64,000 nucleotides of DNA, taken from positions 1 to 64,000 of the forward strand of contig NTMA01000139.1 in NCBI GenBank assembly GCA_002917075.1, given 5' to 3'. This DNA is from Hawksworthiomyces lignivorus (Eukaryota; Ascomycota; Sordariomycetes; Ophiostomatales; Ophiostomataceae). This document shows positions 2,544-54,986 of this stretch, piece after piece (position 1 is the stretch's first letter; each line of letters starts with the position of its first letter). The position numbers were made by a program, and so were the translations under genes. The notes under the pieces were generated by a model. That model saw only the letters and a program-made list of their open reading frames with translations. It had not been told where the DNA came from and made no database searches.

Positions 2544-5213
2544 TCAAACTAGAACAATATGTTCCAACTTCCACCGCTCGTGGTCGAATATCGTCTCATA
2601 GATGAGGGCATCATTGCTGTCTGGCACCACGTAATTGGAGGACATAAACTCCAGCACTCCGAAGCGCTCCCATCTACCTTCTGCCTCCTTACCTTCGACA
2701 CTCTGCAATACGAGAGCGTAAAGAGAGTCGCTCTGGTCTGTCTCGCGCAGAATGAATGGCGCGTTCTTGACGTGCAAGATCTTCGTTAGGATGAACTTGC
2801 GCCCCGGCCCTACAGGAGAGCGTTCGACTGCTGACCTGCTCAATTCTGAATCGCTGGCGTCGCCCCAGCCTTCGGTAGGGTCTCCCATGATCATGGCCAT
2901 ATAAGGACATAGAATCTCGTAGAGGCTGTCTTCCCGGTTTCCGCTTTCGTAGTACATCCAGTCGTCAGGCAGCTGGATTACGGGCGCGTCAAAGATCAGT
3001 GCCGTCGGTTTTGTCGGGATAAATCGCTCGTTGTCGTCTGTGCGCTGTTCTTCGCCGGCAGCTTGGCGTCGCAGAAACTGGCTCTCGCTCTGAAAATCGA
3101 GCGCTACCTGGACGTTGCGCATGTAGGTCTCTGATTCATAGTTCAAGGCAAAGTTGTTGTGATATCCCATACCGGATGAGCCGGCAGCCCAGCTCCAGGA
3201 AGGTGTCCGTACGGAGGAGACCGCGCTCCGCTTAGACACAGGAGAGTTGCTCACAACTTGGTTCCAGAGCAAGCCGTATTCTATGTGACTCAACCAGAGA
3301 CCGCTTGCATACGTGTTTTGGTCGCCCACGTGCTGTTGAATGACCCGCGCGATTCCGGCTGCAGCTGGCAGACGGTCATTGGCATCAGTGAACTCGCGAG
3401 CTATGAAGAGGTTGACAAAGTCGTAGAATTGCTTCACCAGGTCCAGATTCGAGGACGGGCCAGGCTTGCTGTAATTGACCATCTCCTGCCAGGCGGCCCA
3501 GAACCGTCGGTTTGTGGGCTCGCCCCACATGCTTTCGTCGTAGGCCGCGCGTATTCTCTCGTCCTTCCATTGTCGTCCGTCTTCCGGTGTAATCAAAAGA
3601 CCACTCTCGCTTTTGTGGAGACTCTGACAATCCCATGTCATTTCTTCCTTTTTGAATGCGATGATGCGGCTGGATGAGAGATGCTCCTGCACCGTCCAGC
3701 CACGAGTGTGCCACGCTGCGGCCTTTGCCTTCTGCTCGTTTACGTTCAGGCTAAGCAGCTGTAGTTCACATGGAGAGTGGCAGCCTTCCATCTTCTCTGG
3801 CCAACTGACGAATTCCGGCTGCGGCCGCTTGGAGAAGAGACCGTCGGTACAGGCCAAGGCAGCTTCGGCCACAATGGTGACAGCTGCGTGCATGTATATG
3901 TCGTTCATCCGCTGTGACTCGGCAAGCCAGTCGTTCTTGTCGTCCTGGACAATGCACAAGGCATCTACCCACAGGTAGCGCATGCCCAGGCGCTTTGTTA
4001 CGAGGATGGCATCCGCGATAGTTTTGGGAACAGCGCGCATCTCGATGCTTGCCTGAAAAGAAGCTATGTTGTCCTTCGTAAGAAGAAGAGTATCTTTCGT
4101 CGTACCCCAGCAGTAACTAAGAGCTGCATAGGGGTCATCCTCGCGACTGCGCGTGATATGGAGTCGCGGGGGAAGTGTGCTTACGTCGAGGACGCGGGTT
4201 GGCATAGCGCGACCGCTTGCTATTAGCTGGCGGCAAGCTGGATGGCTTTCGGAGCACTCTTTGAACCAGGAAGCGGCCATGTCCATGCACCCTGCGCTTG
4301 AAGAATGGTCCGAGACGGGGCGGAGCCAAATGAGCTTAGCAATGTCTTCCGGATATGCGTCTGTAAGATTGCGATTAGCGTTGGTAACTCGAGAGGACAA
4401 TAGAAACTGGTAAAAATTAAACTAGCCAATGCTGTTCATCAAGGCCAAATAAGACAGATATGTGGTGTGAGTGGTGTTTCCATCCTTTACTTTTAGTTCG
4501 CGCAGAACTATGCCGGGTGGTTGGTCATCTCTATCTCGTTCAGGGCCAGACCGATAGTCTCGGAGAGGCATATAACGAGAAACCCCCAACGGCGTCTTAT
4601 TCGGATCCGGATTCAAGCTGCTCGACGAGGCTCTTTTCTTCCAGATGTCCAGAATAGCACTTCTCACATCTGCTGAATCTGGTCCCAGTCCTCCTCCAGG
4701 GCTACACTGGACCGCCGTGAATACTGAGGTGCGATCTTCGTCCTGGTCGTCCGCATTTCCGTAATTCCGCACAAACGCCCGGCATATGTTGCATCCAGGG
4801 TCTTCCAGAGCGCAGTCGAGCAGGTCTTGAAGACTCGCATGATGCCTTCTAACTGCGTCGGGATTCAAAAACGTACGCGGAAGCAATGTGGAATTCACTA
4901 TACCACCAAACCAAGCAAACTGGAGCTCCTGATCACTTCGCAAGAGAGAGGCGAGGTCGATGTTTCGGCAGGCGTCACAAGCAGGTGTAGTGCTCGCAGG
5001 TATTTTCTGGTTCGAACTATTCGATGCTTTTGAGGCTGAGTTGGATGCAGGCGGGGACGCGACATCTGAAGGTCTATTGCGTTGCATACTTGGTTCACTA
5101 GCCAAGCCTGCCGCGCCGAGAGCTGTGCGGATCCCAGGAGCCTCTGAGGATGATTGCCGCTGGGCTTGAAAGCAGCCAAACACTAAGTCCATGCAACTTC
5201 GAGACTGGTCCAT
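2544..5213 (-). CDS. HET-domain (heterokaryon incompatibility) protein
   Basis: A two-exon model fits: 4491-5213 and 2544-4406, removing an 84-nt intron with GTAAAG donor and ACCAG acceptor, and giving about 861 residues. The start is the first ATG (MDQSRSCMDL) of the upstream frame. The N-terminal part has a Ser/Ala-rich stretch and the CDACRNIDLASLL segment common ahead of HET domains. The HET domain (about residues 330-485) shows YAALSYCWG, RYLWVDALCIVQDD followed by ESQRMNDIY, and TRGWTVQE. HET proteins act in the cytoplasm in allorecognition and trigger cell death when activated; the partner here is unknown. The intron ends are my best in-frame choice. An alternative acceptor at a CTTACAG closer to the domain is possible. 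Confidence 0.85.
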
Positions 5214-8690: not shown

Positions 8691-8794
8691 GATCGAGGTT
8701 TTTTTTTTTTTTTCTTTTATGGTACCAAGCTAAGCAGGTGACACAAGCAGACATTTCGCAAGTCAACGAGTTACACAGCAGCTACCCGGTCACC

Positions 8795-9420
8795 ATGGCC
8801 GCGCGATCCTCGCCTTCGAAGCTGGCAGTGGCGGGGTCAGAGCTCTCTCTTTGTCGTTTCAAAACTCAGCAGAGCTTTCCGGAATCTCCGGCCTGCATGC
8901 GCGAAAATTGAGAAGCTGCCGGGGCTCTGCGCAGGAGTCTCGAACGTCTGCCAGGCTATGATGAAACTTTTCAAAGATGCTCAGAACCTTTCCTCCGCCG
9001 CTTCGAGACTGTCGAAAGCTGTCTCGGTGATACTTTGATTCACCTTGAAAGGCGCCCACCACCAGAACAACAACACACAGAGCATTCCACAGCTTTCTGC
9101 GTCTGCCTTCTGAACGTCGTCTCATAATCTAGACAGCTGCAGCCCGGCCGCCTCCCTACACGCATTCCTTCTCCGTGTTTGTGCCTTCGTTGGGCGGACG
9201 GGAACCTGCATCTCGCTATATGGACGACAGAGGATTTTGGACAGCGTGCTGGGATTCTCGCCAGGTCGTCAAGCGCATCTTTGAGAAACGAGGCGCTTCC
9301 GCCGGAACGGCAGGTTGCTGTTACAACGAGACACCAAGAGGAATACGATGCCGTCGGCGTGGGGGGCTTAACAGACGTGGCGGCCGTCTTCAGAAGTAAA
9401 TCCGTAAGCTCGATGAACGA
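8795..9420 (+). pseudogene. 2EXR-domain gene, decayed paralogue of the gene at 12285
   Basis: Bases near 9099-9300 translate to LRLPSERRLII*TAAARPPP, then REPASRYMDDRGFWTACWDS and RQVVKRIFEKRG. This lines up with LPHELQLMIWAAAARPPP, REPAAHCKDDRGLWTACRAS and REVVTRVYTERK of the intact gene 3.2 kb downstream. The Trp of the domain has become TAG, a RIP-type change. Upstream, from the ATG at 8795, a decayed Ala/Ser/Lys-rich stretch corresponds to the coiled-coil start of the intact gene. Frames break several times, so this copy is dead. Confidence 0.75.
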
Positions 9421-10470
9421 CTAGTAGTCAAGTTTTCTAGAATGGAGAACCTGCTACGTATAACGACATCGGACCCACAAAGTCCTTTTTACGGAACCTA
9501 TTACAGAGATATCTGGGATGGAGCCAAGCTGGAAACTGGGCGAGAAGGACATTCTGTCGAGACACTGGACAAACTCTGCGAAGAGTTAGAGACTGGAGAT
9601 TTCTTTTACGGGGAAAGCTAGTACTGGGGTTAGTTCTCGTGGAGAGACCATGGCTCTACGTGTAGCTGGGGAGATAACAATACCACGGAACGACATGATT
9701 TTACCTCGTACCTAGAACATGCTTGTGCCGTACTTCTGGCAGGGCAATGATGCAAAGCCCGCGCCTCTGTAGCCGCCTAGTCGCGCTACGCGAAGCGACA
9801 CGTTCTGCCTGTGTGGTAGTCACGCGTCCATGTCGTGACTTCCTGTTTTGGAAACCACCACTCGCCGACTGAGCGAGCTCCTGGGCGCCCGGCGTGCAGT
9901 GTATGTACGCAGATAAGTGTTTTCTTCTTTGGAGAGAGATTTTTTCCTTTTCTTTTTCTTCTTCTTCGTCAACCAAGTCTTCAGTATGTGTTTTGCAGGC
10001 CCCTTGTGATCCCCTTTGCTGTTGGGTTGCTTCGCATTCTGCGATATGCGACTCAAGGCTCCTTGCAGCTGCCTCTCATTGATCCACATGCTGTAAGTCG
10101 TCCGCGATCCGCTCACACGGTACCGCTACGCAGCGTTGCTAATGGGATGCTACACACAGAACACGCTTGATTTTAGTTTGCGATAATTCATACACAATTT
10201 TTGTAAGTAGAACTTTGTCCAATGAACTGGGGGCAGAGGCAACATCAAGATGGCCGCCAGTCGGATGCAGAGCGAGAGTACACCTGCTAACCACAGGGTG
10301 GATAGTAACACAGCACTGTGAGTAGGCGCTCTGTGCAGCCGCTTCCCGGCAGGATACTGACGGAAATCGGTTCAGAAACCACACCACCACCACCAACAAC
10401 AGAAGATGACCTTAGCCCTGCCTGTCTATTATCTGTCAGTCCAACAGGCTAACTCAAAACTCAAAGCAGA
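9421..10470. other. Intergenic; possible 5' leader of the micro-exon gene
   Basis: A 53-codon frame at 9442-9621 (MENLLRITTSDPQS...) has no recognisable product. At 10318-10374 an intron-like segment is present (GTGAGTAGG donor, ATACTGAC branch, GGTTCAG acceptor). Just before 10471 a GGCTAACTC branch and an AAAGCAG acceptor precede the ATG. The gene at 10471 may therefore have spliced 5' leader exons. An ATGGCCGCC at 10251 opens a 22-codon frame that ends at a GTGAGT donor, but I could not join it in frame to the rest. Confidence 0.35.
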
Positions 10471-11563
10471 ATGGCGATGAACGTGAGATTATTCAATGTT
10501 TCCTCGGCTGTCCCGGTTCGCAGATAGCGCTGACAGGAAGGCTAGCAGCAGCAATTGGGCGAGCCTGGGCCGGTGGCCGAGCCGGCCACCGGCCCAGTTT
10601 CAGCGGTAAGTCTTTGTAGCGTCTTGCCATCCGTACTCCGTCTATATTCTGATGCACTGACACAAGACTGTTGAAACAGACCAACACGCCGAAAGTAATA
10701 TCCAATGGATCTCCCGTGCGGCCGCAAATGCGCATAAATTGCTAACAATATTGCTAGGGCGTTCAAAAGAGAATAGACGTAAGGTCTATCCGCAGATCAA
10801 GTAGGATATGGGCTTTGTCTAACAACACATGCATAAACATACAGCGTCTCGAGAAGGAGATCGCGGTGAGTCTTCTTTTGTACTGCCCCAGTGTGGTCTC
10901 CGAATGAAGTGCTCTGGTCATATTCGCCGGCGACTAACCGCTCGCTCCCTCATTCGCACAGAATTACGAGGCCAATGCCGAAGTAAGTGACTCACTATGC
11001 CCCTGCTAGATTCTACTCGCTTATGCTCCTTGGACACAAAGCTCACTGACATGTGTTTTAGAAGGCGGAGGAGAAGATGGCGGTAATATACTACCCGAAG
11101 AGATACGTTGGTTGACGGACACAGAGAAGAGATTTAAAAGCTGACAAATCCTTTCAACAATGGGATACGTTTCGAGTTTTCTCGAACGTCATGGCCGAGG
11201 TAAGATGTCGCTCATCTTTAACATCTATTGGCGAACCAGCTACTGACGTAGATCTCGTATTAGAGCAAGAAGCGCGAGTTGGACGTAAGCATTTGCAGAG
11301 CACCCGTCATCTTTTAGTCGTGCAGCGCTGAACTAACGGGTTGGTCTAATTAATAGACGCAGAAAAATCTCAAGGCCGTACGTCGCTCCTCTGCCAGCTA
11401 CAGCAACGTAAACATATTGACGTACCCGCAGCAATTGGAGCGCCTTCCCTCGGCCCGCCAGGGGCCCCCTGCGGCTCAGAACGAATCGGGCGGCCTTGCT
11501 GCCCTTTCAGCTGCTGCTTCGGCGGCCGCCGAGGGCGGCGCCGACTCTGCTTCCGCAGAGTAG
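10471..11563 (+). CDS. Micro-exon coiled-coil protein (11 exons, six of exactly 21 nt)
   Basis: I could splice this by eye into exons 10471-10482, 10546-10605, 10680-10694, 10758-10778, 10845-10865, 10962-10982, 11062-11082, 11125-11199, 11264-11284, 11357-11377 and 11432-11563. The total is 420 nt, 139 residues plus TAG, with every junction in phase 0. Donors are GTGAGA, GTAAGT, GTAATA, GTAAGG, GTGAGT, GTAAGA, GTAAGC and GTACGT types; most introns have CTGAC or CTAAC before a YAG. The six 21-nt exons encode GVQKRID, RLEKEIA, NYEANAE, KAEEKMA, SKKRELD and TQKNLKA. Hydrophobic residues favour positions 2 and 6, so each exon is one coiled-coil heptad. The N-terminus is a Pro/Ala/Gln-rich linker and the C-terminus an Ala/Ser/Gly-rich tail. 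There is no signal peptide or known domain; function unknown. Least certain are the first exon and the 42-nt intron before the 75-nt exon 8. Confidence 0.75.
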
Positions 11564-12284
11564 AGGAATTTGTAAGTTTGCCCTTGTATAACAAATATGT
11601 CCGTTGTATGTTAACACATTGTAAGTTCGGGATATTTTGGTGAGAAAAAAAAAGAAAATAAATTTTTTTCCTCCCTTTGTAAGGGTTTTTTTTTTGAAGT
11701 TTTCTCTGTTTTAATTTTATTTTTAATAAAAAATTTATGAAAAATTATTCAAATACTTCGTAGTTTGTTTCTGATGGATCTTAGCGCAGACTGTGAAAGA
11801 ACTGACACGACTACTTACTGGAGATCGAGCGAAGGCTACCGTGAAGCCTGCGCATACATTGCGACACGCACAGTGAAATTCTTGCTATTAACGAGTGTTC
11901 TTCTAGGGCTAAAAATACTCGGGTCCCACTCACTGACGAAATTAATCGGCAAATTTTAAGAAAATGAGAAAAACAATACCTACTGGTGTCACATATGGTC
12001 TACCTAGTGTACTGATGGTTCGGCATTTCGTCGGCCAAAGATTTCGTGCTTCTGTCTCTGCTTTTCTGCACTAATTGTTTATCAGGGCAACAGTTGTCTA
12101 CGGACGAAAGACGAGGCCCAGATTGCGGACCGGCGAAGAAACAAAACAACTGGCTACCGAAGGGCATTCTACAGTGAGCTCCTAGAGGCATTGCCCATAG
12201 CTATCAGCATCGACGGTCCACGCAGCATACGCCGAACTGACAACAGAAACCATACGTTCGCCGTCCTATCCCGTAGCGTGGACC
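11564..12284. other. 3' flank and promoter region, no gene seen
   Basis: A/T-rich low-complexity DNA at 11640-11760 follows the micro-exon gene. 11760-12284 has no convincing coding frame and serves as the upstream region of the 2EXR gene. Confidence 0.4.
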
Positions 12285-13151
12285 ATGACCTCCCACGCCA
12301 AAACCTCGAGGCTTGCACGGGCCCAGGCAGACCTCTCTGCACTAACCAACAAGCTGGCCAAAGCCCGCGACGACCTCCAGGAAAAGACAGACAAAGCCCA
12401 GAAAGCTAGCTCGCTCTACTACACCGTTTTGTGGGCCTATTTCGACATGGCGTCATGCAACATATACGCTTGTGAACTGGAGACCGCCGCCGCAAAGCTG
12501 GCCAAGACTTCCTCGCTCATCTGCAAGTCCGCGGCAAAGGAAAAAGCCCGCCACTCGGACTCCCCGACCGACCGCCAGACATGTTTCCGCGGCTTTCCAT
12601 CCCTGCCCCATGAACTCCAGCTCATGATCTGGGCGGCGGCGGCCCGGCCACCGCCCTGTGCGCACTACTTTGCCACGTTCGACCTCGCCCTCGCGCTCGA
12701 CGGCCGCGAGCCGGCTGCCCACTGCAAGGACGACAGGGGGCTGTGGACGGCGTGCCGGGCCTCCCGTGAGGTCGTCACGCGCGTCTACACGGAGCGGAAG
12801 GCCTATTTCAAGACGACGATTGCGAGCGGCGGCGGATGTCTGTCCGGCAGCAAACAGGTCGAGACGCAGCACCGCCGGCTGGCCCGGCTGAACAGGAGTG
12901 CTCGCTGTTTTCGGCGGCAGGTGCACAGACTGCGTGGTTTGGTTGCGCGTGCTTTGTCCGTCCTGGAGGGACGGCTGCGCGACAGCTACATTAGGCCCGA
13001 CTTACAACAGCGCCGCCTGGTGCCGGCCAACGAGGTCTGGGGGCCGGGCCCCTTTCGCATCTGGGAACCCGACTGCCCACTAGGGGCCCCTTTTGCGATC
13101 TTGGTCAGGCTCTGCGCAAACGTAGAGAGGGCCGATTTCTTTGATACGTGA
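12285..13151 (+). CDS. 2EXR (F-box-like) domain protein with N-terminal coiled coil
   Basis: A single intact frame of 288 codons starting MTSHAKTSRLARAQADLSAL. Residues about 5-95 are Ala/Lys/Leu-rich with heptad character, a likely coiled coil. Residues about 103-170 show FRGFPSLPHELQLMIWAAAA followed by REPAAHCKDDRGLWTACRAS and REVVTRVYTERK. This is the pattern of the fungal 2EXR family, which is F-box-like at its start (LP.EL...IW). F-box-like proteins usually recruit substrates to ubiquitin ligases, but no partner is known for most 2EXR proteins. GC content is clearly higher than in the flanks. A dead paralogue lies at 8795-9420. It ends with Asp-Thr and TGA at 13151. Confidence 0.8.
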   Translation: MTSHAKTSRLARAQADLSALTNKLAKARDDLQEKTDKAQKASSLYYTVLWAYFDMASCNIYACELETAAAKLAKTSSLICKSAAKEKARHSDSPTDRQTCFRGFPSLPHELQLMIWAAAARPPPCAHYFATFDLALALDGREPAAHCKDDRGLWTACRASREVVTRVYTERKAYFKTTIASGGGCLSGSKQVETQHRRLARLNRSARCFRRQVHRLRGLVARALSVLEGRLRDSYIRPDLQQRRLVPANEVWGPGPFRIWEPDCPLGAPFAILVRLCANVERADFFDT

Positions 13152-21099: not shown

Positions 21100-24000
21100 A
21101 TGCCTCCCCCCAGCCGCAACAAGGACAACAGGCGCCAGCAGGCCTCGGTGAGAGTCTGTTTTGCCTGTTCTACCCATGTCGTATTGCGTTTGGATTCTGA
21201 CTGCACATCAAGATACGAGCAAGGAGGAAGCATCCGAGGATCGTCTTTGTCTCTCACAGACCTTCGCCAGCGGACTCTGTCCCCGAGGATCGGGCATCCC
21301 ACTTCGCAAACGATCTCGCTGAGGTAAACGCGAAAATCTCCCAACTTTCGACAGACGGCTCTCGCGGTGTTTCTCTGCTAGACAGCAAGAAGGCCCTCTC
21401 TGAAGATGCTAGCAAAGGCGGCGTTCCCTTCGTGGCCCAGTCCACCGAGAGCTTCAGCTTAACTTCAATTCCCGAAGAGCGGCAGATCCAAGTGTCCACC
21501 GATCCCTGCAACTCGGCCTTGATTCAGCAAGAAAGACAAATCTCCCCGTCTACGAGCCTTATATCCACAGCAGCTGGAGATAATCAGACTGCTACGTATG
21601 GCCTGAAGCAACCTGATGAACTTCAATTTAAGTCCGCTTATGACAAAGCCTGGGAAGCACTTGATGAGAATCAAAAGGGAACCTTATCCAGAGAGGAGAG
21701 AATACGAGCTGCATTTGAAGAAGTCCGCAAGAAAGTTCAGAGAACTCATATACAAAGGGGTTTCTCAAGAGCAGGACCCTGTCTTAGAAAACTTATCTCA
21801 GCTTTCGATGTGGCCAACCCAGTCGCTGGTCTTGATATCGCACCAAGAACCGCACTCGGGCTCGTCCAGGGCACTGCATTAGTAAGTCTAAAGGGTTTTG
21901 TGACTGATATACTTGCTATTGCCATTCCTCTTTTCGCCTTTCTTTTTCTTCCCTTCCGTTGATTTATCTTTCTGTACAATCGGTCTTTTATATTCTTTTT
22001 TTATTCTTCTTCTTTCAGACGGTCCACCAGTATAATGACAGTTGATAGTTCGCATTTACCTTTTGGTGCGTTGGAAAGCGGCGGAGGCACTGCATCGAAG
22101 CATTCCTACAGAGCATCCCTGGAATTGACCACTGCAACGCAAGAGTGCAGGACGGCCGATGGCCGGATATATATGATGTTAGCCACTTCGTGAAAGGTGA
22201 ATCCTATTGTATTGCTATTTACTTACCGAATCATTGAATCCATCTATAGACACTGTTCAACATCTACAAAGCTCTTTTACAGTTCTACCTAGAGACTTTA
22301 GCTGTTTTCGAAGGCCCGCATTCAAAACAACAACCAGAAGAACCTCTAGTGGAAATTGCACCAATTTTCGATGATTTGAATGCATTTTCGGAAATTCTCA
22401 CGACGTTCCTAGAATTCGAGATCCTCGCAGCGACAGAAGAATTGAAAGAGGATTTGTTAAAGACAAAAAAGGCTATGCTTGATATTCGGGAAGAGATGAA
22501 AGATATGAAGGAGAACATAATAGACGATGAGGAGGATATAGTCGATGATTTTAGTGAGTCAGCACCTCAAGCGACCTGTTGCTTGAGATTCTAAGACTGC
22601 GATTAACAAAATGGATAGTTCACGACATTGGAATCCTGCACGTGGTTGAAAGTAGGCCGAATGATCACGCGTTTGAAGCCCATATCAACGATACGTGCCG
22701 CTGGGTCGAGTCCGATCATGGATTTTCTTCATGGATATCCGACTTGCCCTCTTCGAATGTTTTAGTCTTGACTGGAGACAAAGGCTGTGGAAAGACAGTG
22801 ACAAGCGCTTATGTCTTTAAGATCCTCTCCAAGAGCAGCTCGGCAGTTTGCTGTTACTATCGCAGAAAAGGCCATACTACAACACCCCTTACGAGTATCT
22901 ATAGCAGCATCATGCGACAACTAGTTCAGCAGATCAGTGGCCTAAAGTTCTCCCTCTACCGGTGGTACATGACGGCGTCCTCTGAATTTGACCCATTTAG
23001 GTCAAATGCCAAGCTACGCGAGTTCCTCATTACGGCAATCCTCTCGTCTTCGAAACGCGTCTTCATTGTGCTCGATGGCCTGAACGAATGCGACTCGCAG
23101 AATCGAATTGCGCTCTTTGGCCTCATCCAAGAGCTCCTTGCCAAGAACGCGCAGCTTAAAGTATTCATATCTACTAGAACCGATAACGAGATTGACTTTG
23201 CTTTTCCCGGCGGTATCATCCGGGTCGGGATGCATTCGTCTCAGGAACGGGACCGAAAAATTATGAGCCACCTCATCAAGTACACTTGGGTGCCCGAAGA
23301 GTACTATGAAGCTGTGGTAAACGAGCTGGTGGCTCAAGCACCAGGCTCTACCATCTGGCAGTGCACAGCGATGTATCATCTTCAAAGGCTCATCATACCT
23401 AATTCGAATGACCTGACAGAAGCAGTCAAGATGCTTCCCTTTTCGTATGAGGACCTCGCCAATTGGTATTTGCACTACGTCGATCAGACTTGCCATGGGG
23501 TGTCGATAAATGAAAGACGTTTAGCGCTCTCGCTTGAGATGCTTGCGGTGTCTTGCCAACCGCTAAAACTCTATGAACTTTCCTATGCGGTCTATCTCGG
23601 TATGGAAATGGAAGAGAGGATCATGACTGTCACCGAACTAGACCGTGCGGCCCTATCAATGGATTTGATGAGCCTGCTTAGACCTTTCGTTCGTCTCATA
23701 GATTCCGGCTCGAGAGACAACCCACATCTTCTACTTACTCATCGATCGTTAAGAGAACTCATTCTCTTAGCTCCACCAGAGCAATGGTCGTCGATTGAGT
23801 GGGATATAGGGACACACGAACCTTCTAAGCAACGATTAGCAGAGCTCAACAACTGCCTACTGCAATGCTGTATTAAGTACTTGCTTTTAGACGAGTGTGA
23901 AAAAACCGTGTTGGTGTTGGACTCCCAGGAGGAAGCCGACCTTCACGGAGATGGCGATGGTAAAGATGATATCTCTTCGGGTGATGCCGCATCAACTGGC

Positions 24001-26643
24001 AAATTTGACCCATCTGAGCTTGGTTTGGGTCATTTTTTCGCCTATGCTGCGTCGTATTGGACAATTCATTTCTCCAACGTGTCATCAAAATTTCGTCCGA
24101 AGGCTGCCGACTTAGTCTCGCTCTGTCGCCCGCGCTCTCAAAGACTCAGAAATTGGGTGTACCAGTGGTGTCGGCCGAACTGCACCAAGGCTCCAGAATT
24201 CAGGCTCCCCGTACCTGAGGGGGACCTGGATCCTGTCGTCGTCACGGCTATGTTTGGCCCTGAAGAGTCCCTGGTCGACCTGTTTCTGAGCGACTTTCTG
24301 CTGCCTCCGAATGTTGTGCAGAATTCCACCTGTATCTCCCTCACAGCCCTCATAAAGAGGGGTGAAGTTGCTATAATCTACCGCCTACTCAAGGACCATA
24401 GAACTCGGCCGATTCTGAAGCAATCTTCGTTCTTTGTCGAGGTGGTTCCCGGTTGGCGCAGCCCAACGCGCATGCACGCGATAGACGCGGCCGAGTGGGC
24501 ACCAATCTTCGACATTGTAATTTGGAGCTTGTACGCGGGTATCTGCAGAGTAGGCTACGAGATTTTATTCTATGCGGCCTATTGTGGATGTAACGTTCTG
24601 GTCGAACGGCTCTTCAAGGCGAGCTCCATAGATCCCGCCCTGAGAACAGCAATCCTGACCGACAAACGCAATATGCAGACGGCGGTTTGTACCAGACCCA
24701 AAAATCCCATATTGGAGTCATCAGACTGCACCAACATCCTCCACGAGGTGAAATTTAATTACTGGAGCGGAAGCACGGATCCCGCTCCATATATTAAAGA
24801 CGAGATACCAAAATTCAAGATCAAGGATTGCCAAAATGAAGAATGCAAGGCAAAAAGAGACCGTCTTCAACATATTGCACCTGCTTTTGAATCAATCGAC
24901 TATCCAGGTCTACGGGACTGGGCACTGAATGTCGTATCTTGCTGGATTAACTATTATTACTTATGGCCATGGGATCACACACCCGTACCTGCGATAGAGT
25001 TCTGTTCTGCTTTTTTAGTCCAGCAGTGGCGGCGAGGGGATATGCCTTTCGTTGGCTGCGATAGCGTTGGGATTTGCCGCTTGTTCCAATGGGTCTCCTC
25101 AATATGTCTCAAGAAGTCGAGTTGGGGATCGGCTCGAGTGCTAGAGAGGGCCCTGGGGCAGCGAGCCCTCACGTCCTTGGTCATGCGTGAAGGCGCGCTT
25201 GACATCCCGAAAGGCGTTTGTCTCTATCGATTTTGGAACCTGGGCTTGGCAACCGACCGTGGAGTCGTGGAATTACCCCCCCTTAAAGCCTTGCTGCATC
25301 AGTTTCGTCTTTCTGATCGGCACCTCGAGAGGCATCGCGACTGCACCGTCGACGTGTGCTACCAAAATGACGAGAATACCACCATCGTCCCGCAGCATCA
25401 TGTGTGCAGCAACCCAGATGCCTGTGATATCGTATCTTTTCCACCTACGGTCGTTAACAGCATTGATTGCGCAGAGGACGGCGCAACGGCTTGGAAAATA
25501 TCCTCCAACTGGCCAATGCTAGGAAGCAGTCGCTACATGGCTATCTCCCATGTATGGTCTGACGGAACCGGCGTTGGGTTGAGAGGTTCTGGAAACGTCA
25601 ATAAATGTCTCGTCAACCACTTTAAGACGTTTGCTATGAACAAAAGATGCGATGGCATCTGGTGGGATGCAATCAGTCTTCCCACAATCAAAGAGAAAAG
25701 AATCATAGCTCTAAACAGTATGCACAGCAACTTCAAAAGGGCATCCTGCACACTGGTTCATGATCTCGAGCTAGCTGACTTCACGTGGGCAGATGATGGC
25801 AGTCCATGTCTAGCCTTGGTTTTCTCTACGTGGTTTAGCCGTGGTTGGACCGCTCTGGAATTGTACGCATCTAAACAGGTGTGGGTTCTGTTCCGGGACT
25901 CGGAAGGCAAACCTATCCTTAAAGATCTGGATACAGAGATCCTGGCTCACCCGAGAGATCCATTTGTCCACCCAACACACTTGCAAATCTCCAACATCAT
26001 ACGCAGGCTTCGTAGGCGCAGATCTTCGCCTCTAACCATCGACAATCTTCTGGGCACCTTGAGGCTAAGGCACACATGCTGGACTCGAGATCGGTCTATC
26101 ATTGCTGGGCTTATGATCGGTGAGGGATCCGGAGATGCACAGTGGTTTGATTCAACATGGAGCCAGATGGATATCACAAAGAACATCCTCACGAAATGTC
26201 AGCTTCTGAGTCCTTACGCCTTGTTCCACGATCGGGTACCGGTTTGCGAATCCGGGCCGTGGTCCTGGTGTCCTCCTGTAATCTTCGATCTCAAATCTTC
26301 CCCATCAGTCGATGATTACATGCCATTGACTGTCAAGGAAGGGAGATTATATGGAGATTGGATAGTCATCAAGCTGAAGGAAGGAGATGAGCGGAACCTG
26401 ATGCCTCTTGCTTCTCATGGCATCTTAGTTGAGCGGATCATGGTGGCCTTGAACAAACCTGATAGCTACCGTCTTCTTAACCCTCCTGTGCGACCCTATG
26501 AGAGGGAGGGACTTCCATTTGTTCTTGTCGAGACACTGGACTCGAATTTCTCCAATATGAAGTGCCGTTTTGTTGGCACTGTTGTTGGAACGATCTCCCC
26601 TGGTCACGAAATAACGTATAGCCGAGACTTAATTATAACCTAG
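21100..26643 (+). CDS. STAND/NLR-like protein: N-terminal domain, NACHT, C-terminal HET-like domain
   Basis: A five-exon model is in frame throughout: 21100-21147, 21213-21881, 22049-22189, 22250-22553 and 22619-26643, about 1728 residues. Exon 4 ends at a strong GTGAGT. The N-terminal 390 residues resemble the alpha-helical Goodbye-like domains that open many fungal STAND proteins (FKSAYDKAWEALDENQKG; ALLQFYLETLAVFEG). NACHT follows: Walker A GDKGCGKT (about 440-447), Walker B RVFIVLDGLNECD (about 534-546), then a winged-helix-type region ending in HRSLRELIL. No ANK, WD40 or TPR repeats are evident. At about 1361-1472 comes a HET-like domain: YMAISHVWSDGTG, DGIWWDAISLP, WFSRGWTALELY. STAND proteins are ATP-dependent signal switches in fungal recognition and cell death. 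The acceptors of exons 2 and 3 are the least certain. Confidence 0.8.
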
Positions 26644-41859: not shown

Positions 41860-44604
41860 GGCCCCCAATAGATGCACAGGCCTGTGCATCTATCAAATCA
41901 CGTGGATTTTTATTTGCACAGGTGCACGTGATATCTTAATCTCTTTTAGGAAATCAATCACTAATATTGTCGCCAAAAAGCATTCAGAAATAACAAAAAT
42001 GACTGCAAATTACTATACAAATTCAGTTCCCCCTTAATGCTCTACTCTGACAATTGCCATGATCGTTGAATTGCCTGCAGCCTTGCATCTATAAACTCTG
42101 CACGTGTCCCCGCCGCCTGCGCCTCTGCTTGAGCCTCTGCGGCAACGGCCCGTGCGGTCCGTATAAGTCTGCTCCGGCGCGGTGTACGTGCCGTCCGCGT
42201 ACGGGTTGTCCGTATACGCCGTTGCCGCGGCGCCTCTGTCTCCATCTCCGCCTCCGCCTCCGCTTCTGCATCCGTTTGCTTTTGCCACGCTGTCTGGGCT
42301 TCGTATTGAGTCATTGTCTGATATTGGGCTTGAGCCAGTGTTAATGTCGTTATATTAGCAATAGGTTCAATCGTTGCCCTCGTCGCTGCTTCTGTCCTTG
42401 CCATCATCTCTGCCTTTGTCGTTACCTCTGCTTCTGTCGTCGCCTCTGCCTCTGCCTCTGCCCTTGTCGCCGTCTCTGCCTCTGCCCTTACCGTCGTCTC
42501 TGTTTCAGCAATTGAAATAATAGATAAAACTGTTGTTGTTGTTTGTGTTGTTAATCGAGCTGTTACCGTCGTCGTTGTCTTTGCCCACGCCGTTTGTACG
42601 GCTGCTTGCACTTCTTGTGTTAATGTTGGACATTTAAATGAAGTCCTTTTATGTCCAATATCGTTACACCGACTACACCGCGGCGGTGCTCTGGGCCGAA
42701 CGGTTGCCGCCACTGCTTCGTGAGCACTTGGCTCTCGTCTTGTACTTGATTGTGGTATTTCTGACATAGGAAGAGTTGTTACTCGTTGTCGTGGTTTTAG
42801 TAAAACAAAAGAAGGCTCTGTATTTTCGCGACGAAGACGCCAATGGGTGTGAAAGTCTGACATTAAAAGCGCTTGTTTGTTTTCGATTTTTTCCTGAATT
42901 GTATGTACGCAAGGAAGACCCAAAGAGGCTGAAAAAGATCCAGAACAAGGACGAAGAGCCTCTTTTTCGGCCTTCTTTTTTTGAATCAATTGTTTTTGTT
43001 TATTTACCTTTCGTAAAGCTTCTTGAGAAATCCAACCATGTATAGCATTATACAGTACTTCAGATAATTCAACTGGTAATCGTATTTGTTGGTTAGTTTG
43101 TGTATATCTTAATTTAGATATTTGATTAATCAATGCACGTTTAATAGCTTGTCAAGCATCAAAAAGATCCTTTTGAGAAGTCTGTAGATAACTTTTTATA
43201 AGAGCATGAATTCCTTCCACTCGTGATGTGACAACATTACCGAAATGGGGATATTGATTAACCCATGTTTTTACCAACTTTGTTTTATACAAATCCAACC
43301 AAGTTTTAAGAATATACTCAACTTCAGTAGGTTGTTGTGATTTGTATTTTGTCTCAAAATCTTTCACACGTTGTTTATAAGTCTCCTCATCTGGTGACCG
43401 AATGATTTGATGTCAACATAAATAGAAAGCTTCCCAGTCTTCGTTGTTGTTAAAAGCAAGTCGACAATGTCGTAATACTGTCATATTAGTATGTCAGACG
43501 CAAAGAAGATGTGTTGATAGTGGAAAAATTACTTCCATTGCATTTATACATGTCAGACAACGGTCAGTTAAAATAACTGACGGAAGTTTGATATCGTGAA
43601 CTGTATACATCTCCATTAATTGTGTTAATGCTCAAAAGTAGTCAGTCTCTGTTTCTCCAGATAAAAATGCAAAAGCAATACAAAAAGACTGTTCACAAAC
43701 ATCAACACCAATTACTTCAAGTAATGGCATAGAATACATATTTGTCTTATATGTACAGTCTAATAACAATGTGTCTGAATAGAATCGAAGGTAATCTACT
43801 GAATCCCGATGAGCAAAAAACACAGTTGTAACATGATTGTCTGAATCTACCTCAAAACGACTCAAAAAACTATCATCCTGAAGATCGGTAGCAAAAGCAT
43901 GTGTAGGACTTAAACCTTGATATCCTTGCCGTCTTATTTCAGCAATTTGGTTATAAATATCTTGTCGAGTAATCAAAGACTGGTGTTCAATTCGAAGAAG
44001 GGACTGGATCTCTTTTGGTGCCAATCCTCCACTAACACTGCTTGAAATTAATTCCTTTTCGGAGGCTGAGATAATACGGTGAACAGGGTGAGCAACAGGG
44101 TCTGTACTAAGACCATGGTTATGTTCAGAATACCGTTGATCAAGCCGGTGCTTCAAGACCCAAGTGCCATCTGCAGACTCTTTGGCCAAGACAGAGTATA
44201 GACAGCCAGTCCTTCTAGTTGTGGTACGCCTGAGTCGTACTTTCGTCGGGTCTGGTGGTGGGCCAAATCGATCACAGGCACAGAAACATGTAAGCCTACC
44301 AGAGCCTTCCTTATTTGACCGACTAATAACAAAGGCACAACCGCGAGGAGCTGCCCACTGATTGATTGACTGAAGGAGGGCCTCTCTTGATTCGTATACG
44401 GCTTCGGGAGGCAGGGAGGGAGGCAGGGAGGGAGGTAGGGAGGGAGGTAAGGAGGCCATTTTGTTGATTTTGGTGATGATATTGGTGATGCAATTGATAT
44501 GGATAAGATTAGGCTTAAAGGGGACTAAGATATCACGTGCACCTGTGCAAATAAAAATCCACGTGATTTGATAGATGCACAGGCCTGTGCATCTATTGGG
44601 GGCC
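41860..44604 (-). mobile_element. Full-length Mutator-like element (MULE), 2745 bp
   Basis: The two ends are perfect inverted repeats of 79 bp (41860-41938 and 44526-44604), beginning GGCCCCCAATAG. They are flanked by an 8-bp target-site duplication, TTCTTGCG (41852-41859 and 44605-44612). Each inverted repeat contains the 20-bp perfect palindrome GATGCACAGGCCTGTGCATC and CACGTG sites. The interior is occupied almost entirely by one transposase frame on the minus strand. Identical ends and intact duplications indicate a recent insertion. It landed between repeat copy 6 and the promoter of the ABM gene. Confidence 0.95.
42042..44459 (-). CDS. MULE transposase, single frame with four TGA codons at Trp positions
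   Basis: From the ATG at 44459 (MASLPPSLPPSLPP) to TAG at 42042 there are 806 codons without a frameshift. Parts in order: a Pro-Ser-Leu repeat; a FAR1-like DNA-binding region (RGCAFVISRSN..CFCACDRFG); the MULE catalytic core (LLLDCTYKTNMYSMPLLEVI, LSGETETDYF, LTDRCLTCINAME, HFGNVVTSRVEGIHALIKSY); a CCHC-type zinc knuckle (CSRCNDIGHKRTSFKC); and a low-complexity Ala/Glu/Thr tail. Four TGA codons fall where relatives have Trp: before ALTQL (43632-43634), in CV*HTN (near 43490), in LC*HQI (near 43413) and in DA*QAI (43152-43154). About ten other Trp are TGG. No TAA, TAG or indel occurs before the end. Read by the standard code the protein is truncated. Confidence 0.85.
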
Positions 44605-44612
44605 TTCTTGCG

Positions 44613-44777
44613 GACCCTCCACGTGATCACGCATGGCCATTTATCCCAGGCAGTCCGTGCCGTCAGTCGGCTTAGTTGGTTTTTATATACACTCAGACCT
44701 CAGCTTCCTTCACATGCGTTGCTGGAAATTCTGAACAGTGCTCCAACAACTTTCCTCCGCAAAACATACGTATTACA
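44613..44777 (+). promoter_or_regulatory. Promoter region of the ABM gene, truncated by the MULE insertion
   Basis: Only 165 bp separate the MULE duplication from the ATG at 44778. TTTTTATATACACTCAGAC (about 44680-44700) looks like a TATA box some 80 bp upstream of the ATG. The element therefore sits immediately upstream of the core promoter. Confidence 0.45.
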
Positions 44778-45938: not shown

Positions 45939-46427
45939 TCAGGATTTTACTATTACCTCAGGGGTGGCTAAGACGCTCTTGTTACCAACCATTTTCCATC
46001 GGACACTGTAGAACTCGACCTCACGCGGCGCGATCAGCTCCTGGAGCGTCCATCCGCGGCGAAACCATCGACTGCACACAAATGACGAATCCAGCCGGGC
46101 GCTGGACACGTCCTCTAGGTGAGCGTAGAAGATCTCCGCCTGTCGGTACCAGGCGAACATGGAATTGACTGCTTCGCCGAGCTCAGTGCTGCTCGATTTA
46201 TCGATGCAGCAGGTGTTAACCCAGGCATACTCGAGGCCGTCCTTCCTAGCCTGTTTACAAGTTGCCCAGATCTTTTGGAACCCACTCTTAGACCATCTAT
46301 GGCTAGCGTTATGAAACTCTGCGAGCGACACCTCCCCGCTGGACCAAGTGTGGGATAGGATGGCATAAGGTGGAGCTCGACCATTGAATTCCACCAATTT
46401 CAATATCTCCGTATTAATTAGCCGCAT
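45939..46427 (-). CDS. Truncated HET-domain protein (HET-D/E-like N-terminus)
   Basis: Starts MRLINTEILKLVEFNGRAPP. The HET motifs are clear: YAILSHTWSSGEVSLAEF, DGLEYAWVNTCCIDKSSSTE, LGEAVNSMFAWYRQAEIFYA and SRWFRRGWTLQELIAP. The frame ends after 162 codons (LATPEVIVKS). Full proteins of this type continue with a second HET part and then NACHT-WD40 or another module. A GTAATAG donor follows LATPE and an AACTAAAG...ATACAG acceptor lies 40 nt on, but the next exon stops after 12 codons. I read it as a truncated copy. Confidence 0.65.
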   Translation of the reverse strand: MRLINTEILKLVEFNGRAPPYAILSHTWSSGEVSLAEFHNASHRWSKSGFQKIWATCKQARKDGLEYAWVNTCCIDKSSSTELGEAVNSMFAWYRQAEIFYAHLEDVSSARLDSSFVCSRWFRRGWTLQELIAPREVEFYSVRWKMVGNKSVLATPEVIVKS

Positions 46428-47766
46428 TTCTGCCAGCTTATTTAAGTCGGGCTAGGCAGTGGTATCAAAAAATGCTAAGGATTTCGAATAGAGCGACGGT
46501 GCCTCTTCTCGTTATGTAGGTTGTTAAGACAGACAAGTGATTACGGCGGGATAACCATCAGAGTGAAGCAACGACGGCATTGAAATTGTCTGCGCCCATG
46601 TGTCACAACCTCCGTCTGTTGCCGCTGGACTACTGGCGGCTGGCCCTCTCTCATTAGTCGCATGTCAGTCAGGTATACATGAATCATGTTGGGCACTAAT
46701 TCCCTAACACCTAGCAAAAATATGGATATTGAACCCTATATAGGGTTCGTTTATTTTCTTCGCAAACGCTATATAATAAAATAGTATGATTCAATTCTTA
46801 CCCTTATATGTGTAAGGTAATGGTATAAGTGGTAATAGATTGGGAGGGTAAGAAAAAGAGAGAAAGGATAACAGGGGTAAAGAAGAAGTAAAAGAGGTTA
46901 ATTTCCTACCCATTCCAACCACTTGCATCGTACGTAGTAAAAAGAACACACTAACTTTAATACAAAATAGTAAAAACTGTAGATAACAACGTATTCTCAA
47001 AAGAATGCTATTTGTAAATTAATTTGTTGCAATTGTCAAAAGGCCGTGTCGCCTGGCAGTAGAGTCGAATATTATTTTTGACAGCACAAGCTTAAGAATG
47101 AGGTGTAATAAGAGATTATACAGATGTACATGTGCTTAGCTCAGATTAAAGGGCTAGATGCTGTGTTTCCCGAGGACAGCGGGCTAGCAGTAGTTAGGTT
47201 ACTTGTATATACCGAGTATTATTGTAGGTAATACGAGTTTCCATTTTAAGTAGTCTGTGTGTCACTATGAAAATGTTTGAAACTTTCCTTCCACATTCCT
47301 TAACTTTAGAGTATATTGTTTGTGGCGCTGGTCGCCTTGAATTGGCAACTTGATTACAGCCCTTTGCAAAATGCATTTTACGTTAGGCGCCCCTTTACAC
47401 AGCCGTATCATCTAGTAAGCACCATCCATCTAAAATGTACTCCTTAAATACTAAAACTACTTTTTTACTAGGTAGAGGTTAGGACTATTGCCACATACCG
47501 GTTCGGCTCTAAAGAACCTCTGCATTTTCCCTATCTCGGCTGTGTCATTGTCGGATATGGCGCCTTGATTGTTGGGATGATGCGTTGTACTTCGTATTGT
47601 GTAGATACTGATGAGTGTACGGTCCCATATAGAACCCTTGAAATACATGCTAAATTTAATGCCTTAAGCATAACCAGTACCGCTGCTATATCCTGCAACA
47701 TCTAACAGTTATCCTCGCTCCTCCAAATTAGTGACATCACTTAACCCTGTTTCCATCGACACCTGC
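46428..47766. other. AT-rich intergenic region, no gene seen
   Basis: Includes a TATAGGGTTCG repeat near 46738-46750 and short frames without domains. It separates the truncated HET gene from the SnoaL-like gene. Confidence 0.4.
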
Positions 47767-50392: not shown

Positions 50393-51613
50393 TCATGATG
50401 CTTGCCGCTGCTCCTTCCAGGCGGCATGTTTTCTGTAGATGTCCCGAGAAAACGTCTGCTTCAGGTCGAGAATCCTATCGCTGCCCTGGATGGGTAACTT
50501 AGGCTGGATGGCACCGATGCCACACAAGTCGTTCTGACGGTCGATGAACCACACAATGGTCAGCCCGCCGCCCCATGTGAGTGTATTTTCGCCATACCAG
50601 CCGTCGGTGCTCTCCAAAGTCAATAGCCCGCCGAGACCGTGGCCCGTCTTCATAGTGACGTCAGGATCAGGGCGGAAGAAGGTACCAAGCGAACCGGACA
50701 TGGCCTCCTCGTGGCCCCTGGATGCCTCAGAACTGAGATGGTCTGCAAACATTTCGTCGACGGTGGCCGGCTTGAGCAGCTTGCCCTCGTTGGCCAGCAG
50801 CGAGCGCAGAACCTTGACATAGTCAGCCGCCGACATAAATAGCCCGTGGCCGCCAAAATCACCTTTGGTGTGCTTGTTCATCTCTCCGCCGCCGCCCAGC
50901 ACAGCGCTGCCCAGAGCACCCGGGTCTTGTGGGTTGAGGTCAACAAGGCGCTCTCGCAGGTCCTCGCGTGTGACGGGATAAAACTGCGCATCCGAGATGC
51001 CCAGCGGCTTGAGGACGCGCTCGTGCACATACTCGCCGAGCGTGCGCCCCGTTACCCGCTCCACGATACGGCCAGCCCAGTCTACTCCTGGTCCATAGGC
51101 CCAGCCTGTGCCGGGTTGAAAGGTCAGTGGGTGGCTGAAGGCCTCCTCGATCGGCTGGCGTTCATCTGCCTTAACTGGGGCGAATTTGTTTCGCCACCGG
51201 CTCACACTGGGATCGAGAAAGTAGTAGCTCTGGCCGAAGCTATGGGTGAGCAGCATCTCCAGCGTGATAGGACCAGAACGTGGCTCAAGCTGGGGAACGT
51301 CGCCTGAGATACTCTTCAGGACCTCCTTCGCAAAAAGCTCAGGCGCCACAGAAGAGAGATCGCCATCCAGACTGAGAAGGCCATCTTCCACGCATTGGAG
51401 AGCAGCAATGGTGGTGATGAGTTTGGTAGCCAAGGCAAGACAGAGAATGTCATCGAGCTTCTGTGGTTTCTTCTCCCCCGATAGAGTGACTCGGTTGCCT
51501 AGAGCGTTGTTGTAGACAAACTTGCCCTCAGCATCTGTGGCACAGAGAACAGCGCCATTAATTTTCTCTATATCGAGGGCACTCCTAAACCGCGTCTCAA
51601 TTGTGCTAGGCAT
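50393..51613 (-). CDS. Beta-lactamase/transesterase-fold protein lacking the catalytic serine
   Basis: An intact frame of 406 residues; the ATG at 51613 (MPSTIETRFRSALDIEKING) is the start. The fold is that of fungal class C beta-lactamase-like hydrolases and LovD-type acyltransferases: the SxxK region, then ITLEMLLTHSFGQSYYFLDP, a GTGWAYGPGVDWAGRIVERV tyrosine segment, FGGHGLFMSAADYVKVLRSL, and a C-terminal TWGGGLTIVWFIDRQNDLCG. In the SxxK motif the sequence is DILCLALATKL: the Lys (residue 64) is present but the Ser position (61) is Leu (TTG, one C-to-T step from TCG). The standard nucleophile is therefore missing. Everything else is uninterrupted. Substrate unknown. Confidence 0.8.
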   Translation of the reverse strand: MPSTIETRFRSALDIEKINGAVLCATDAEGKFVYNNALGNRVTLSGEKKPQKLDDILCLALATKLITTIAALQCVEDGLLSLDGDLSSVAPELFAKEVLKSISGDVPQLEPRSGPITLEMLLTHSFGQSYYFLDPSVSRWRNKFAPVKADERQPIEEAFSHPLTFQPGTGWAYGPGVDWAGRIVERVTGRTLGEYVHERVLKPLGISDAQFYPVTREDLRERLVDLNPQDPGALGSAVLGGGGEMNKHTKGDFGGHGLFMSAADYVKVLRSLLANEGKLLKPATVDEMFADHLSSEASRGHEEAMSGSLGTFFRPDPDVTMKTGHGLGGLLTLESTDGWYGENTLTWGGGLTIVWFIDRQNDLCGIGAIQPKLPIQGSDRILDLKQTFSRDIYRKHAAWKEQRQAS

Positions 51614-52310
51614 AGTTGGGTTGATGTTGAAGAGATAGGATGAGATGGAAGCTAGCAATAGGAGAGAGCAGAGAAAACGAATAGAACGATAGATGAGATA
51701 AACTCGTTTGTTATCCTACCGAGGACTTAGGACAAGTGCAGACCTTCTTCAATTATATGCTACGGATCCGCGATGTGCCCTACCGTTGCATTGCGGCACA
51801 GAAAGGGCGAAAACGAATAGGAGACAAAAACAAGACCAACATCTACTGCCAGTTACTACGCTACCGCTGAAATCAGAATGTGATCTGCGTTGGAGTGTTA
51901 TCGGATCACACCCTAAAGATATTAACTTTAGATTATCCGTTAGACCCCTGAGTCCAAAGGAATCCTAGCGCTTAACAGGTTGCTCCGACGCAGTAGCTCC
52001 CGCCTGGAACTAGGCCCAGAAAAGAAGTCCAACACAAATCACGAAAATCCAAGGTAGCCTTCTCTCAGATCCAGACCTCAGTTTTCTAACATCGCCAGAA
52101 GAGTTACAAAGTGAATACATTGACATTTTCATATTGCAGAAGAGCACGGCACCTCTACTATACTGTCTTGCACATGATAAAAGACCATCACGACATTGTA
52201 AGGAATTATGGTGAATATATTCAAGTTCAGCTAAGCTGAGCTAATAATACCAACTATCAAGGACTCCTAACTGCGAGTACTTCTGAACATCAACGAAATC
52301 AAATCCGTGC
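51614..52310. other. No recognisable gene
   Basis: Upstream region of the beta-lactamase-fold gene and downstream of the small secreted protein. Short frames only. Confidence 0.4.
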
Positions 52311-53982: not shown

Positions 53983-54986
53983 ATGCCTACTGACGACATT
54001 CTCGAAGCTGAGCTCCTAATTCAAGAGATAGACGATGATAATATGCGTATAAATCGATCTAGCAATTTGAAAAAGCGATATGCACACCTATTTCCACGAC
54101 TCTCCAGTGACATCTCTAGGCTGTTCCTGGCTTTCTTTGTCCAGATCCTTCTTCTGGCTCTGGCCACCTGGTTATTGGTCAGCTACACCAATCTCACAAT
54201 AGATGAACCTTGGGAATACTACTGTAAGGATCCCTCACAAATGATCTAACCTGCCATCAGCAACTGACGGGCATAGCTCCCATCCGCAAATATATTCAGC
54301 TGCCATTCCACACTATGCAGATCGATGCGAGGGTATTCCCAGATGCCTCTGATCCCATGGCTGTTTTTGCCGCTCCCCCAAGCCGCGAGGTCGACCGTGC
54401 CTGGAATAAGATCTCTCGCAACATGATTTTCGGCCTCACCCGGTCAGATCTGATCCATCTCGGCAAAGACCCGGCCACATCCGTCAAGTTTAATCCCGAG
54501 TGGAACATTTCAGGCGGCGAGGATATGTATCTTGGCGTTCTGGATGTGTTTCATCAAGTGCACTGTTTGAATATGCTGCGCCAGAATCTGATTATGAACT
54601 ACGACTACTACTTTGGTAAGGCCTATGGCTACAAGCCGGAAGTTTTCCATGAGACGCACCTGACGCATTGCACATCAATTCTACTACAGAATATTATGTG
54701 CCACGCAGATTTGGGCGTTTACACGCATGTGTGGCGAGAGGGAAATCCGGTCCCCTGGGCAGATTTTAGTATCAATAGGCAGTGTCGAGACTTCAACGCT
54801 CTGATGGAATTTCGCGATACTCAAGATGTAGAAGACTCGTTTGATAAGTTTCGCTTTTACACAAATATCCCGCAGGATGCAGTTGTTCTTCCTATGGAAG
54901 AGGGTATGGCGGAGATGCTTGCTAGTGCAGATGAGTATAGGGATGGAAAATACTATAAGAAGCTGCGTGTCAAAGGCTGCAATTAA
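53983..54986 (+). CDS. UstYa-like (DUF3328) oxidase
   Basis: Two exons, 53983-54223 and 54277-54986 (53-nt intron, GTAAGG donor, AACTGAC branch, CATAG acceptor), 316 residues. It has a cytosolic start, one membrane helix (about residues 44-65, FLAFFVQILLLALATWLLVS) and a lumenal catalytic part with both HxxHC motifs, HQVHC (about 173) and HLTHC (about 208). These bind metal and define the family. A Trp-containing tail (PVPWADFSINRQCRDFNALM) follows. UstYa proteins oxidise or cyclise ribosomal peptides (ustiloxin-type) and some non-peptide metabolites. Next on the other strand is an MFS exporter, and further on a Zn2Cys6 regulator. Confidence 0.85.

Follow-up and report, generated by a model that had tools for sequence, protein, structure and literature searches.

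The locus described here raises the question of whether a fungal gene can be assembled from exons of exactly 21 nt that each encode one coiled-coil heptad and, if so, whether splicing uses those exons to vary the product. It lies in a 64,000-nt stretch of Hawksworthiomyces lignivorus DNA (hereafter the window) that forms the start of its contig. A sequence-only reading of the window had proposed an 11-exon gene beginning at an ATG at 10471 and containing six such exons. Six candidate exons of exactly 21 nt, each with a branch site, an acceptor and a donor, do occur between 10758 and 11377 on the plus strand, at the positions and with the products given by that reading; they encode one heptad each in continuous register, are open in one frame and are joined in phase 0. 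The 11-exon splice form likewise translates into 139 residues with no internal stop. The features of the 12-exon model favored in this work are the following:

10250..10317, + strand: exon 1, proposed in this analysis; MAASRMQSESTPANHRVDSNTA plus 2 bases; good-context ATG, donor GTGAGT
10318..10469, + strand: intron 1, 152 nt, phase 2; donor score 6.0, CTAAC branch 18 nt before the exon, CAG acceptor
10470..10482, + strand: exon 2, 13 nt; completes L, then MAMN; the ATG first taken as the start is at 10471
10546..10605, + strand: exon 3, 60 nt; QQQLGEPGPVAEPATGPVSA, with the number of Q uncertain
10680..10694, + strand: exon 4, 15 nt, TNTPK; donor score 1.3, the weakest in the model
10758..10778, + strand: exon 5, 21 nt, heptad GVQKRID; branch CTAAC, TAG, donor GTAAGG
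10845..10865, + strand: exon 6, 21 nt, heptad RLEKEIA; branch CTAAC, CAG, donor GTGAGT
10962..10982, + strand: exon 7, 21 nt, heptad NYEANAE; branch CTAAC, CAG, donor GTAAGT
11062..11082, + strand: exon 8, 21 nt, heptad KAEEKMA; branch CTGAC, TAG, donor GTAATA (second weakest)
11125..11199, + strand: exon 9, 75 nt, doubtful; RRDLKADKSFQQWDTFRVFSNVMAE; preceding intron 42 nt, coding signal weak
11264..11284, + strand: exon 10, 21 nt, heptad SKKRELD; branch CTGAC, TAG, donor GTAAGC
11357..11377, + strand: exon 11, 21 nt, heptad TQKNLKA; branch CTAAC, TAG, donor GTACGT
11432..11563, + strand: exon 12, last, stop TAG; QLERLPS, then an alanine-rich tail; coding score 7.7

The ten introns of the 11-exon form measure 42–96 nt, as do 10 of the 11 introns of the 12-exon model, the remaining one being 152 nt; a CTAAC or CTGAC branch is present in 9 of the 11. 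Nine of the ten internal exons are multiples of three (15–75 nt), and the other is 13 nt long. The earlier claim that all junctions are in phase 0 holds for every intron of the 11-exon form but not for the likely intron 1, which is in phase 2; exons 3–12 begin in phase 0, with exon 2 as the exception. Three tandem acceptors at 10546, 10549 and 10552 (TAGCAGCAG) have nearly equal scores, so that exon 3 could carry 1, 2 or 3 Gln codons. The same exon holds a perfect inverted repeat (10565–10597) with 15-bp G+C-rich arms and a 3-nt loop. The surrounding 76 nt have a folding energy of −44.3 kcal/mol, compared with −30.4 (sd 3.2) in 200 shuffles, and the genome search made with the locus returned only the self-match for this hairpin, which could influence exon 3 splicing or translation.

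Could random AG..GT 21-mers of intergenic DNA simply have been singled out by a reader looking for pattern? This explanation is very improbable. Candidates were defined by a CTRAY branch 6–35 nt upstream, a YAG acceptor and a donor that agreed with GTAAGT at four or more of its six positions and had A or G at the third. Single consensus 21-mers do arise by this rule: twenty 10-kb comparison pieces, 18 taken from one further contig of the genome and 2 from a second, contained 7 per 400 kb of strand, or 17.5 per Mb. At that rate about 0.02 would be expected in 1.08 kb, where 7 were observed. The window holds 9 on the plus strand, 7 of them inside 10297–11377, and 2 on the minus strand; 60 first-order Markov copies of the plus strand hold a mean of 2.0. 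The longest chain of 21-mers comprises 4 in the real strand and 1 (47 copies) or 0 (13 copies) in the Markov set, where no copy had two chained. A frame-consistent micro-exon chain of 7 was found in the piece containing the locus, and 53 of the 54 strand-pieces (window included) had no chain above 3. When 67 lengths (9–75 nt) were scanned on both strands of 21 sequences totaling 264 kb (the window plus 200 kb of other DNA of the same genome), at least three equal-length candidates within 1.1 kb occurred only at this locus. The seventh consensus 21-mer of the cluster (10297–10317) has stops in frame 0 and falls in the 3' part of the proposed exon 1; it serves as a separate exon in some of the top 15 gene models and could stand alone as an exon in a different phase.

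A coding signal independent of this clustering also argues against chance. Joined, the six 21-nt exons give GVQKRIDRLEKEIANYEANAEKAEEKMASKKRELDTQKNLKA, and they look coding in their composition. Charged residues account for 20 of the 42, compared with a mean of 8.3 in random sets of six drawn from the window's 90 remaining open AG..GT 21-mers; none of 20,000 draws reached 20. G+C content at codon positions 1, 2 and 3 is 55, 29 and 76%, and the difference between positions 3 and 2 (0.476, against a mean of −0.046) was equaled in 0 of 20,000 draws. Openness of the frame is in itself a weaker argument, because frame 2 of the joined exons is open too, while frame 1 has a stop. The preference for hydrophobic residues at heptad positions 2 and 6 noted in the earlier reading was borne out, with 7 of the 8 V/I/L/M/F/Y/W residues at these positions (permutation over 7 registers, 0.0017), or 8 of 10 (0.002) when QLERLPS of the last exon is added. 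These positions are spaced 4 and 3 apart, as are the d and a positions of coiled coils, and Gly or Pro occurs only once among the 42 residues. Exceptions to the hydrophobic core are TQKNLKA, with Q and K at positions 2 and 6, and SKKRELD, with K at position 2.

Within 8717–12200, no stop-to-stop frame of at least 150 aa exists on either strand. The gene models were obtained with a gene finder whose codon usage came from four frames of the window (three with Pfam domains plus a beta-lactamase-like frame) and whose splice weights were set by hand from the general fungal consensus rather than from this genome. With these settings, the region 9900–11750 scored 120.4, compared with a mean of 27.0 and a maximum of 49.3 in 100 Markov copies, and the six 21-nt exons were present in every one of the top 15 models. 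Barring any one of them in its exact form left the other five in place at a cost of 2.2–8.4 units. In five cases, a shortened form of the same exon was chosen; for exon 7, the replacement was a 25-nt version combined with a 23-nt exon at 11177, with the frame shifted in between.

The 5' end allows several solutions. The ATG at 10471 sits 1 nt past an acceptor with a CTAAC branch, and the intron 10318–10469, with its GTGAGT donor, joins this acceptor in frame to an open stretch that starts at the ATG at 10250. The resulting 12-exon form scores 106.1, compared with 97.5 for the start at 10471, and encodes 162 residues with the N-terminus MAASRMQSESTPANHRVDSNTALMAMN and the rest of the protein unchanged; the first exon of the earlier model was thus probably incomplete. 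The top-scoring model of all (120.4) starts at 10046 and replaces the exon at 10250 with 10046–10092, 10160–10202 and 10271–10317. The best 15-residue mean hydropathy is 0.03 for the start at 10250, 0.06 for 10471 and 1.99 for 10046, and the predicted location of the protein depends on which of these three starts is used. Judged from its composition, the N-terminus of the 10046 form is hydrophobic and could be a signal or an anchor. A secreted or membrane-anchored micro-exon protein, in which this N-terminus precedes the same coil, would draw on that hydropathy, on the highest model score and on the GTAAGT donors of the two candidate 5' exons in 10046–10202. Yet these two exons score only 1.07 over 30 codons, lack a GC1 excess and could be 5' untranslated exons, which makes this a quite improbable alternative; the start at 10046 was not adopted because of this low coding signal.

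Exon 9 is an ambiguous internal part of the model. Its removal lowers the score from 106.1 to 95.8, a cost of 10.3 units, and its splice sites are decent despite the 42-nt intron ahead of it. Over its 25 codons the coding score amounts to 2.1, compared with 2.9 for exon 10, which has 7 codons, and 7.7 for exon 12, the highest among the exons of the 11-exon model. It would comprise 3 heptads plus 4 residues and would thus shift the register by 4. Its place in the gene is doubtful.

The same region bears on whether the array is intact. Where the spacing of the array predicts another exon, a 21-nt candidate at 11179–11199 (FSNVMAE) was considered and rejected: its donor, at 11200, is good, but no AG lies ahead of it. 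The site is spliceable only as a 23-nt version (11177–11199), a length that preserves the frame only in combination with a change in a second exon, and the stretch is possibly a lost heptad exon. Together with the weakness of exon 9 and a homologue search that came back empty, this would suit a decayed gene, either a pseudogene or a non-coding transcript in which splice sites survive from a micro-exon coiled-coil gene that was formerly longer. Against it, the reading frame is uninterrupted both in the six exons (42 codons) and in the last one (43 sense codons), and the six exons carry a clear third-position signal. Decay is accordingly considered unlikely.

The origin of the array was examined by alignment. 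In none of the 15 pairs were exon-plus-intron units more alike than shuffles, a fraction of 0.07–1.0 of which scored at least as well, and aligning the six exons by codon column gave p 0.07, rising to 0.14 when the core positions were fixed. Neither alignment thus supports a common origin of these exons; long divergence could hide a relation. A 16-nt word at the starts of exons 3 and 12, 88% alike, was judged to be probably chance.

Searches for relatives were empty as well. Among 5.77 billion proteins (word-filtered), the 139-aa form had no homologue at E ≤ 1 (1048 candidates scored), and the 114-aa form without exon 9 had none at E ≤ 10 (682 candidates scored); this search scores only proteins of similar length with common short exact words. 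Fungi were covered, as shown by the beta-lactamase-like neighbor at 50396–51619, for which 7994 candidates were scored and 570 relatives reached E ≤ 0.001; the best of them, 74% identical, is from Niveomyces insectorum. The sequence-only reading knew of no named fungal family of this kind, and this agrees with the protein searches and with the finding that no Pfam family exceeded its cut-off. Profile and structure searches gave either no match or sub-threshold coiled-coil-like matches; among solved structures, none matched with an E value under 0.9. When the home genome (43.7 Mb, 191 contigs) was searched at the DNA level, the locus matched only itself. A genome protein search for paralogs at E ≤ 10, which effectively covered exons 3, 9 and 12, the 21-nt exons being too short for detection, gave 6 matches, three of them the exons of the locus and three weak (best E 0.07). 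No known RNA family was found in the window at gathering scores. Micro-exons are readily overlooked in annotation, and the absence of relatives is therefore weak evidence for a true orphan.

Exons that match structural units are a classic argument for exon-by-exon protein assembly, and collagen is the best-known case. Both systems have many exons of fixed length that each carry a whole number of units of a rod protein, and the underlying exon logic, in which fixed-length, in-phase exons each hold a whole structural repeat, is found at this locus. The unit here is a 21-nt coiled-coil heptad, whereas that of collagen is the Gly-X-Y triplet, which is absent here; furthermore, the present candidate is a small fungal gene with introns of 42–152 nt and units without DNA similarity. 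The accessible text of PMC4450265 describes exons of 45/54 bp in fibrillar collagen genes and argues that the collagen array expanded through duplication of a single exon unit.

The parallel originally drawn was with the micro-exon genes (MEGs) of schistosomes, and it stands in part. Very short exons in runs, mostly multiples of three, are common to both; the intron lengths do not agree, being 42–152 nt here and 0.1–5 kb in MEGs, which, in the part of PMC10526429 available, have mostly 15-bp exons and a signal peptide. The exons are 21 nt here, and no signal peptide was seen in the favored model by hydropathy; the form starting at 10046 could carry one. MEGs also produce protein variants through exon skipping. 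Aphid bicycle genes are also divergent and rich in small internal exons of one phase, but that phase is 2 in nearly all of their internal exons rather than 0, and their product is reported as secreted, which is not the favored reading here (accessible text of PMC9168663). The same text describes genes with many similar-sized, single-phase exons as rare in most genomes. Closer in taxonomy, the filamentous ascomycetes Tuber melanosporum and Trichoderma have micro-exons, of 3 bp in the NACHT-ankyrin nank genes of the former (PMC4986451, PMC10197012) and as a single regulated 20-nt exon in the zinc-cluster factor Xlr2 of the latter (PMC11121469), as far as the available portions of these papers describe them. 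Neither is a heptad array; compared with nank, the repeated exons here are 21 nt and no Pfam family exceeds its cut-off. Fungal micro-exons are thus already known, and none of the fungal cases compared, insofar as their accessible texts go, is an array in which every exon corresponds to one structural unit. Heptad exons of 21 nt were not found among the listed titles and abstract beginnings of an open-access library, subscription papers being mostly outside this scope. What appears to be new is a heptad-per-exon array in a candidate fungal gene; uniform, in-phase exons matched to a structural unit are familiar from collagen.

The reading that we favor, with somewhat better than even confidence, is that of a real, lineage-restricted protein-coding gene whose micro-exons are probably included by default and whose soluble coiled-coil product probably acts as a small oligomerizing scaffold or adaptor. 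The exon anatomy, the clustering beyond chance, the coding signature and the heptad register were computed directly; we infer expression, constitutive inclusion, oligomerization, location and the cellular role of the product. The favored 12-exon product would be soluble and 162 residues long (137 if exon 9 is left out). Its N-terminus would be rich in Pro and Ala, followed by a charged coiled coil of roughly 7 heptads and an alanine-rich tail. Each 21-nt exon would supply one heptad, with the final heptad opening the last exon, and the protein would probably oligomerize via its coil as a small scaffold or adaptor. Fungal short introns with strong sites are recognized across the intron, so that 21-nt exons need no special enhancer. 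The spliceosome would probably take each short intron of this gene as a unit (intron definition) and thereby include the micro-exons by default; constitutive inclusion is suggested by the shortness of the introns and the mostly strong sites.

These same properties weigh against the regulated gene first proposed, in which skipping or retention of individual exons yields coiled coils that differ stepwise in length and in their choice of partner. Each 21-nt exon is indeed symmetric (phase 0) and encodes one heptad, the 12-exon model has weak donors at exons 4 and 8 and weak acceptors at exons 9 and 12, and filamentous ascomycetes do have micro-exons, as the available texts on Xlr2 and nank indicate; nonetheless, short introns with mostly strong sites would favor full inclusion, and regulation of this kind seems rather unlikely. 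Bolder, and slightly less plausible still, is a coiled-coil ruler built by splicing, where exon equals heptad: each 21-nt exon included would help to set how long the coil is and which partner it chooses, and the spliceosome would edit the coil one heptad at a time. Under constitutive inclusion, an occasional skip would shorten the coil while leaving frame and register intact, because the exons are in phase 0 and one heptad long. Symmetric heptad exons tolerate skip or gain and may therefore offer an evolutionary route of coil-length change, even if not a cellular one.

If true, the equivalence of exon and heptad in a fungal gene would provide a compact case in a short-intron organism, where the removal of single exons is easily tested. 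It also raises the question of how an acceptor and a donor only 21 nt apart can serve six times per transcript. No database protein matched the 139-aa or the 114-aa spliced form, and homology-based annotation may miss such genes.

The surroundings of the locus are varied. Two HET-domain frames lie on the minus strand (2544–4421 and 45939–46451), and a 1361-aa open frame at 22558–26643 is NLR-like, with an NPHP3_N match (E 3e-28) and a NACHT match just below the cut-off. HET and Zn-cluster domains in the window, together with hits such as the one to Niveomyces insectorum, suggest an ascomycete genome. According to the accessible text of PMC10684091, the lineage-specific genes of Neurospora are found clustered with HET genes close to telomeres, and an orphan gene at the present position would fit that pattern. 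Pieces of reverse transcriptase and MULE transposase occur on the minus strand in 966–1436 and 43632–44699. A UstYa-like frame (54228–54986) adjoins a frame with a sub-threshold MFS match (55329–56075), and beyond these lies a fungal transcription-factor frame (59388–60875); the three are possibly a metabolite cluster. A 2EXR-family frame lies downstream of the array at 12201–13151, and its N-terminus, QADLSALTNKLAKARDDLQEKTDKAQK, resembles a short coiled coil by eye.
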